IMG/VR virus record: IMGVR_UViG_3300048809_000064
Location: 1 to 35,689 of that record
Strand: one strand, 5' to 3'
From: a virus
DNA: 35,689 nt
Shown here: in pieces, positions 31,123 through 35,440 of the stretch
How the letters are laid out: each line of letters opens with the position of its first letter
Position numbering within the stretch: position 1 is the stretch's first letter
Notes under the pieces: model-generated
Told to the model about the DNA's origin: nothing
Databases searched by the model: none
What the model saw: only the letters and a program-made list of their open reading frames with translations
Made by a program: the position numbers and the translations under genes

Positions 31123-31151
31123 TTGACAAACACAGAAAGATTTGGTAAGAT
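31123..31151 (+). promoter_or_regulatory. sigma70 promoter for tRNA-Thr and the large RNA
   Basis: TTGACA, 17 bp, TAAGAT, 11 bp before the tRNA. No terminator is seen between this tRNA and the large structured RNA. Confidence 0.8.
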
Positions 31152-31162
31152 AATAAAAGTAT

Positions 31163-31250
31163 GGGGAAGTAGCTCAGCGAAAGAGCGTTTGACAAACCTT
31201 GTAAGAGGGGAGTTTTGAGGTCGGTGGTTCAAGTCCATCTTTCCCCACCA
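31163..31250 (+). tRNA. tRNA-Thr (UGU)-like with expanded anticodon arm
   Basis: Acceptor GGGGAAG / TTTCCCC, D-arm GCTC-AGCGAAA-GAGC, T-arm GGTGG-TTCAAGT-CCATC, ACCA are all regular. The anticodon arm is 13 nt too long: CAAAC, loop CTTGTAA, extra GAGGGGA, then GTTTTG. Confidence 0.65.
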
Positions 31251-31854
31251 ACGATTGAAATTCTTCATGGCCACCTCCTAGTAGCTTTAATGAAGACGGG
31301 TTGCAATTTTATTCAGTAATGTGGTTTTCTTGCAACCCAAAAATTCCGGGTGATTCGGATCATTCAGATGATTCGTGATTGTTGAAGTTTTGAAAACAAG
31401 ATTGGGGGTTTAGCCCCATTAGAATAAGCGTCGTGAGACGCCCAAAGCAAGGAAGCCTACGCACTTGCTCTCCGTGTATACGGTTCATCTAAACAAACCT
31501 CCTCACTGTGGCAACACAGCGATCACTGAAAAAAGCGGTGGTTGTAAAGATGAAATGAGAGATAGGGAAAGAACATTTGCTTACAAGCCGTCGCAAGACG
31601 GGAACTTGGGTTGATGAAAAGAAACGGGTGATGCTGTCTTCCTATCGTATCTACTTATTAGTCCGTATGAGAAAGGGTAGTGTAATGGTCCGAGTCTCGC
31701 AAACAAGGGCTACTATACAGTCTGAACGGAGAATGTCGCAAGGCACTTATTCGTGAAAGATCACTGATTAGTCGGCAGACGAAAGGTATGTTATGTGTTG
31801 TATCAGGAAGTTCAAAAGATTTCTTGTCAACAGTGTCAGCACATGACGTAGGTT

Positions 31855-31925
31855 GCAAATATAGCTCAATGGTAGAGCATCAGTATTTTAAACTGAGGGT
31901 TGTTGATTCAAAATCAACTATTTCT
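31855..31925 (+). other. tRNA-Lys(UUU)-like cloverleaf inside the large RNA
   Basis: D-arm GCTC-AATGGTA-GAGC, anticodon arm TCAGT-ATTTTAA-ACTGA, T-arm GTTGA-TTCAAAA-TCAAC are all perfect. Acceptor GCAAATA / TATTTCT has five pairs, one C-C mismatch and one G-U. No CCA. Confidence 0.7.
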
Positions 31926-32307
31926 TACAAAAGCAAAGTCTGACACGCATTAGGACGAAAATCGTCTAATACTTGACTCGCAAGAGAATCAAGTCTATCA
32001 AGACTCGCAAGGTTGAGATAGTTTGTGCAAGAAATTTCGTAAGGGTTTAGCGACTCTAAATTGCTCGCAAGGCAAACGAGATGGAAAGCATAGAATAATC
32101 CTAATGGTCAAGTCTAGTGCCTGACTCTAAACGGCGACGATGTTAGCAGACTAGGATACCTTGTATAAAGGGCTTAGTGGATGTAATGGGAAACTCAAGT
32201 TCTAGTGGAACGGTCCTCGCAAGGGAGAGTATAATCCATCGGGTGCTAATACAATAGGCGTAATCTCAACCTATTAAATACAAACTTTATTGATGTTTAC
32301 ACCCATC

Positions 32308-32327
32308 GGTCCGAAACTGGACCTTTT
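32308..32327 (+). terminator. rho-independent terminator of the large RNA
   Basis: GGTCC-GAAACT-GGACC followed by TTTT. Confidence 0.7.
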
Positions 32328-32346: not shown

Positions 32347-32375
32347 TTGACATTTCATTCCTTTTCATGTATACT
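32347..32375 (+). promoter_or_regulatory. consensus sigma70 promoter
   Basis: TTGACA, 17 bp, TATACT. It starts the small-gene operon ending in GMP reductase. Confidence 0.88.
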
Positions 32376-34962: not shown

Positions 34963-35037
34963 GCGTCAGTAGCTCAGTGTTTAGAGCGTTTCCCATACGG
35001 GAAAAGGTCGGTGGTTCAAATCCATCCTGGCGCTCCA
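34963..35037 (+). tRNA. tRNA, anticodon ambiguous (CAU possible)
   Basis: Acceptor GCGTCAG / CTGGCGC, D-arm GCTC...GAGC, T-arm GGTGG-TTCAAAT-CCATC, TCCA. The anticodon arm TTTCCC-ATAC-GGGAAA folds to a 4- or 6-nt loop instead of 7, so CAU, UAC or ACG could each be read. Confidence 0.7.
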
Positions 35038-35039
35038 AT

Positions 35040-35113
35040 GCGTCGATAGCTCAGTGAAAGAGCAGTCGTTTTTAAACGATTGGTCGGTGGTTCAAGTCCA
35101 TCTCGACGCTCCA
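35040..35113 (+). tRNA. tRNA with 6-nt anticodon loop (UUU likely)
   Basis: Acceptor GCGTCGA / TCGACGC, T-arm GGTGG-TTCAAGT-CCATC, TCCA. Anticodon arm GTCGT-TTTTAA-ACGAT. Nearly identical D and T regions to the tRNA just upstream, so a tandem duplicate. Confidence 0.7.
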
Positions 35114-35365: not shown

Positions 35366-35440
35366 GCGCCTTTAGCTCAATGATAGAGTACCAGCCTCTA
35401 AAGCTGCGGGATATGGATTTAAATTCCATAGGGCGCACCA
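35366..35440 (+). tRNA. amber suppressor tRNA (anticodon CUA)
   Basis: Regular 75-nt cloverleaf: acceptor GCGCCTT / AGGGCGC, D-arm GCTC-AATGATA-GAGT, anticodon arm CCAGC-CTCTAAA-GCTGC (CTA at 35398-35400, U33 and A37 in place), T-arm ATGGA-TTTAAAT-TCCAT, ACCA. Reads UAG. The charged amino acid is unknown. Confidence 0.85.

Follow-up and report, generated by a model that had tools for sequence, protein, structure and literature searches.

A GOLLD RNA in a phage tRNA array carries a tRNA-like domain with a defective acceptor end in its linker

Which RNA occupies the long stretch without an apparent gene inside a phage tRNA array, and why does it contain a tRNA fold? The window analyzed here, IMGVR_UViG_3300048809_000064, is the whole of a 35,689-base viral record, itself a fragment. 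Its helicase is closest to jumbo-phage helicases (Sinorhizobium phage Phosso, Agrobacterium phage Atu_ph07 and Pseudomonas phage PA5oct), and the carrier of the RNA is a large (jumbo-type) phage. At the start of the record, positions 1-885 of the minus strand encode a collagen-like protein of G-x-Q repeats that is open at the record end. An earlier note, made from the sequence alone, had read positions 31262-32327 as a structured RNA of the GOLLD or ROOL kind, or else of a new class, with a tRNA-Lys cloverleaf embedded in it, and had proposed a search with the Rfam models of both families. The features of the locus as we read them are listed below, in window coordinates.

31123-31151, + strand: candidate sigma-70-like promoter TTGACA-17-TAAGAT, a consensus match, upstream of the 31163-31250 tRNA
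31163-31250, + strand: array tRNA with encoded CCA, directly upstream of the GOLLD RNA (ARAGORN: Val, 88 nt, unusual anticodon arm)
31389-32319, + strand: extent of the RNA homologous to its closest relative, L359 (80% identity over 945 aligned columns)
31403-31787, + strand: GOLLD 5' domain, lineage-variable and outside the Rfam model, with 66 of 110 pairs covarying
31788-32272, + strand: conserved GOLLD 3' domain (RF02032), with the tRNA-like insert in its linker and an extension of about 35 nt near 32200
31833-31842, + strand: helix enclosing the linker, 5' strand, pairing with 31938-31946
31855-31926, + strand: tRNA-Lys(TTT)-like domain in the linker (ARAGORN; RF00005, 57.9 bits)
31929-31940, + strand: conserved 3' end of the linker, AAAAGCAAAGTC, immediately after the tRNA-like domain
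31938-31946, + strand: helix enclosing the linker, 3' strand, pairing with 31833-31842
32308-32327, + strand: terminator-like hairpin GGTCCGAAACTGGACC (32308-32323) followed by TTTT, a consensus match

The Rfam search returned a significant GOLLD match at 31788-32272 on the + strand (195.2 bits, E-value 9e-54), which spans the complete model (1-416) and lies above the curated cut-off of 150 bits for RF02032, whereas neither ROOL nor any other large-RNA family gave an Rfam match at the gathering threshold or at E-values up to 5. Between the two families that had been proposed, the RNA is thus GOLLD. GOLLD RNAs are known for expression that rises during phage lysis, for a length of at least 800 nt and for genes that lie in phages or prophages, in many cases within tRNA islands. 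The conserved structure here measures 870 nt, and the viral record holds about 20 tRNA genes (ARAGORN, Rfam). Positions 31403-32272 of the + strand are a non-coding structured RNA, a full-length GOLLD within a phage tRNA array, and the RNA is a further member of this known family.

The closest relative, L359, lies in a 359,890-base viral contig, and five further relatives (L355-L357, L374 and L375) match both domains of the RNA at 66-73%. BLAST homology to L359 begins at 31389 and the first conserved pair is at 31403, so that of the span first proposed 31262-31388 drops out; the non-coding reading of the rest holds. The locus is flanked by the 31163-31250 tRNA and by small unassigned ORFs from 32381 on, between which the + strand has no ORF of at least 60 aa and no plausible gene overlapping the RNA. 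The sole ORF of at least 60 aa at the locus is on the minus strand (31658-31858). A protein-coding region was considered and rejected.

To assess the fold, eight homologous RNAs were aligned end to end and a consensus structure was computed with RNAalifold, giving -227.8 kcal/mol and 240 consensus pairs, 136 of which show compensatory change. Forty column-shuffled alignments, the fairer test because each shuffle was refolded, gave -56±5 kcal/mol and 16±4 compensatory pairs, with a maximum of 24. Cells at paired positions were paired in 96% of cases, compared with 37-41% when partners were slid by one to three columns, a control that flatters the fold because this alignment was also the source of the predicted structure. 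Covariation extends to both halves of the RNA (70 of 125 pairs in the 3' domain), so both are structured, and the stems that had been read from the window alone do covary among homologues. Large size, GNRA loops and a phage tRNA island are features common to large RNA families and would also suit ROOL or a new class; given the full-length GOLLD match and abundant covariation, a new class is rejected, and with ROOL and the other families unmatched we give this alternative practically no weight.

The smaller claims about the locus fared unevenly. Many perfect GNRA hairpins had been announced, and we find three with at least four uninterrupted Watson-Crick pairs (GTGA at 31433, GCAA at 31511 and 31593), still far above other windows of the record (0.15 on average, maximum 2); a number of other CTCGCAAG motifs belong to the GOLLD consensus. 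A private promoter and a terminator had also been proposed. The terminator-like hairpin is present at 32308-32323, but the promoter-like site precedes the neighboring tRNA and hence is not private to GOLLD; judged by its match to consensus, it may transcribe this tRNA and GOLLD together. ARAGORN names the neighboring tRNA Val(GAC); going by the sequence, its variable arm may be long or its anticodon miscalled. Past the end of the RNA, a near-perfect sigma-70 promoter (TTGACA-17-TATACT, 32347-32375) lies between the GOLLD terminator and the run of small ORFs. Further along the window, the tRNAs at 34963-35113 and 35366-35440 include two with odd anticodon loops ('ta' and 'ttta' in ARAGORN) and one with a CTA anticodon of the amber-suppressor type, all with an encoded CCA.

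The embedded cloverleaf proved real in its fold but not in its charging end. The domain sits inside the helix that encloses the linker, its D, anticodon and T stems are all paired, and its 7-nt anticodon loop ATTTTAA has U33 and a purine at 37. The acceptor stem (GCAAATA/TATTTCT) falls short of seven pairs, with a C2.C71 mismatch and a G1.U72 wobble, and is followed by TACA instead of NCCA; 16 of the 17 parsed array tRNAs of the window encode CCA. We therefore call the domain tRNA-like, since it has no CCA and its outer acceptor pairs are non-complementary. In L359 the acceptor (GCAAACA/TGTTTCT) keeps the C2.C71 defect while an inner pair is compensated relative to the window, and compensatory changes are also found in the anticodon and T stems; the anticodon changes from TTT to ATT. 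An array tRNA-Lys in a different phage (L164) is likewise similar to the embedded cores of the window and L359, so the window copy may be a later capture than others.

Further GOLLDs were collected by pattern scans of viral contigs, confirmed with the Rfam model, and from isolate phages. A minority carry a tRNA fold at the linker site, mostly those in large tRNA arrays: the contigs L135, L354-L359, L372-L376, L378, L433, L435 and L436, the Caulobacter phages phiCbK, Karma, BL57 and others, and the isolates Mesorhizobium Cp1R7A-A1, Phaeobacter MD18 and DSS3_MAL1. Most GOLLDs found have a plain linker, indicating that the tRNA is not needed for core GOLLD function. Of 50 new records picked out by a pattern running from the tRNA T loop to the linker, only 4 held a GOLLD. 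When isolate phages were searched by BLASTN with the window RNA, practically all that matched were short stretches of tRNA arms; 16-mer hits in viral contigs were mostly due to chance, and a pattern scan of genome contigs gave apparent chance matches among the matches listed. Contigs of relatives found through their IMPDH and ThyX proteins held no GOLLD, which is uninformative on the RNA. In passing, we observed two equal-scoring GOLLDs far apart in the genome of the jumbo phage XacN1 of Xanthomonas (L360 and L362, at 38570 and 357365), perhaps within terminal repeats, with a permuted tmRNA match upstream of the GOLLD in L360, and a GOLLD beside a tmRNA in the small viral contig L136 (909-1317 and 2286-2655). 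To the eye, the L376 linker seems to hold a tRNA fold whose variable arm is long and which lacks an acceptor stem.

Linker tRNAs were then compared with the array tRNAs of the same loci, using a curated set of 21 from viral contigs and isolate phages (17 distinct acceptor sequences). None of the 21 encodes CCA, as against 177 of 198 array tRNAs (Fisher's exact test, 1e-18), and a complete acceptor stem is found in 1 of 17 (L374, with two G-U pairs) as against 159 of 198 (7e-10); these P values overstate independence because the sequences are related within groups, and the 17 distinct acceptors are the better count. From pair 1 to pair 7, the acceptor pairs are formed in 8, 7, 10, 14, 17, 16 and 17 of them. 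Nearly all embedded copies have intact D, anticodon and T stems, and compensatory changes keep the embedded arms across the eight-sequence alignment. A single script parsed embedded and array tRNAs alike and misread L374, L375 and L376 as well as a number of array tRNAs, chiefly ones whose variable arm is long; the acceptors of L374, L375 and L433 were set by hand, the acceptor table omits L376 and L378, and the misreads in the array control lower the array figures, so the comparison is conservative. The missing CCA of L436 is uninformative, since the array tRNAs of its contig mostly lack CCA as well, and its acceptor has one mismatch; together with the complete acceptor of L374, this near-complete stem suggests that some embedded copies may be real tRNAs. 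For most embedded cores the nearest matches are other embedded cores, which fits inheritance along GOLLD lineages.

Variation in the anticodon loop is clearest among the Caulobacter phages, where the loops read CGTCCTA (phiCbK), CTCTTAA (Karma) and CATCCTA (BL57) and the rest of the tRNA-like domain is identical. Between phiCbK and Karma the RNA differs at 10 of 887 positions. Five of these fall in the seven-base anticodon loop, at positions 33-37, and neither the rest of the tRNA-like domain nor three nearby tRNAs have changed; the chance of such clustering is 1e-9 if sites are independent, but a single multi-base event would produce it too. G33 or A33 occurs together with T37 in the loops of phiCbK and BL57, a combination unexpected in a decoding tRNA. 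A similar pair is formed by L358 and L373, with anticodons TGG and TGA in embedded copies that otherwise match. The phiCbK GOLLD (L439, JX100813.1 102288-102774) scores 165.3 bits, above the Rfam cut-off. GOLLD is unannotated in phiCbK and its relatives, where annotation covers the linker tRNA alone and names it tRNA-Gly in some of these phages and tRNA-Lys in others, and the phiCbK genome paper reports tRNAs as the only Rfam RNAs (PMC3556154).

How might such a domain be used? The starting point is the RNA described above, with its conserved 3' domain, covarying 5' domain, surrounding tRNA array and terminator-like hairpin at the end. If it behaves like the solved GOLLD, which belongs to another lineage, it would self-assemble into a closed cage of identical RNAs, with the linker facing the interior. 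In the window lineage, as in many further phages whose tRNA arrays are big, the linker carries a tRNA fold: the D, anticodon and T arms are intact and some four to five inner acceptor pairs form, but the outer acceptor pairs are defective, CCA is absent and the anticodon drifts freely or diversifies. We propose that this domain would not be excised, charged or used in translation but would stay covalently in the RNA, kept for the shape of its elbow and anticodon arm. The assembly could then present or sequester many copies of a tRNA mimic to a tRNA-binding factor indifferent to the CCA end. In this least certain step, we slightly favor as partner a host tRNA-targeting nuclease or other tRNA-binding effector, for which the domain would be a decoy, since the anticodon loop changes faster than any other part. 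Overall, a GOLLD with a retained, uncharged tRNA-mimic linker domain is the best explanation, to which we give a probability of roughly 60%; the tRNA-shaped domain is probably kept inside the RNA (and, if the solved GOLLD is a guide, inside the cage) and never charged. Against retention, a host CCA-adding enzyme may supply the CCA, and one or two acceptor mismatches may be compatible with RNase P cleavage.

A rival view is that the linker tRNA is a working gene, excised by host RNases, completed with CCA and reading AAA codons, leaving GOLLD as two paired halves or making it a tRNA store. ARAGORN and Rfam do call a tRNA, annotators list embedded ones as tRNA genes (phiCbK, Mesorhizobium Cp1R7A-A1), and Kretsch et al. 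name them phage-encoded tRNAs (PMC12286853). However, the loss of CCA and the outer acceptor defects are near-general and set these copies apart from their array neighbors, the window already has two tRNA-Lys(TTT) genes and one tRNA-Lys(CTT) gene, all with CCA, and several loops are ill-suited to decoding (some without U33, the ATT anticodon of L359, an 8-nt loop in L374). A working tRNA may exist in a few GOLLD members; as the general account we consider it unlikely. Even less probable is a decaying pseudogene, a chance insertion tolerated in a disordered and unconstrained linker. Linkers do tolerate many sequences and lengths, and acceptor ends are degraded and anticodons variable, but decay should hit stems as fast as loops, whereas the Caulobacter phages changed in the loop only; the stems, intact in nearly all copies, are held by compensation (window against L359, and across the eight-sequence alignment) and copies are inherited along GOLLD lineages, which makes a decaying insertion improbable.

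In a narrower form of the mimic reading, the domain would specifically decoy anticodon nucleases of the host (PrrC-, RloC- or PARIS-like), with many copies per assembly titrating the enzyme and the loop sequence tracking the local nuclease. The Caulobacter phages, in which the anticodon loop is the most variable part, speak for it, as do the Lys anticodons TTT or CTT in the window, L372, L436 and Karma, and anticodon-loop changes against PARIS are established for free phage tRNAs (PMC11455837, in the passages that cite Burman et al., 2024 and van den Berg et al., 2023). Other anticodons are Gln, Asn, Pro, Arg and His, along with unreadable loops, and in the solved GOLLD the linker is concealed within a closed cage, so that such a role is possible but in this specific form doubtful. 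A decoy function would account for an anticodon arm that is conserved, a loop that changes and an acceptor end whose state does not matter. Extended to phage GOLLDs with large tRNA arrays in general, the idea that they are multivalent decoys, with an acceptor-dead linker tRNA whose loop is remodeled under selection against nucleases or effectors, is offered tentatively and as rather improbable.

The retained-mimic reading bears on a published idea, that the cages hold phage tRNAs: the linker tRNAs surveyed here are mostly not intact, having kept the elbow and anticodon arm and lost the charging end while the anticodon loop changes fastest. The question then becomes one of tRNA mimicry rather than of storing or supplying tRNAs. 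That tRNAs occur in the linker is not new, since Kretsch et al., 2025 already note, in one sentence, that phage tRNAs are sometimes found there and draw them inside the cage (PMC12286853). A description of the condition of these tRNAs was not found in the literature searched, a set lying outside GOLLD's original 2009 paper (Weinberg et al.) and Morgado et al., 2020; the same holds for the Caulobacter loop difference and the use of the phiCbK GOLLD as a laboratory model. Because phiCbK carries such an RNA, these proposals are testable in a laboratory phage, and phiCbK and its relatives, classical Caulobacter phages, make a workable GOLLD system with natural loop variants.

Among known systems, the nearest is GOLLD env-38, which cryo-EM shows as a 14-mer cage with the disordered linker in its interior (Kretsch et al., 2025, PMC12286853); the paper also reports a ribosome pull-down. 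The window RNA resembles it in matching the full model, in having a 3' and a separate 5' domain, in its length above 800 nt, in its phage tRNA array and in its linker site; it differs in its lineage-specific 5' domain, in the extension near 32200 and in holding a tRNA-like domain where env-38 has a disordered linker of about 42 nt. With the GOLLDs said to carry linker tRNAs (PMC12286853) it shares the tRNA fold itself, and beyond that mention the state of the tRNA is given here: no CCA, a defective acceptor and a shifting anticodon, across many lineages including phiCbK. ROOL, too, is carried by phages close to tRNA islands, forms cages and has a disordered linker, but the window RNA matches its Rfam model in neither sequence nor structure. 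Finally, the T5 tRNA-Lys genes that resist PARIS offer a likeness in the altered anticodon stem-loop of a phage tRNA; those tRNAs are free and working, whereas the domain in the window is embedded in a large RNA and has no sound acceptor end.
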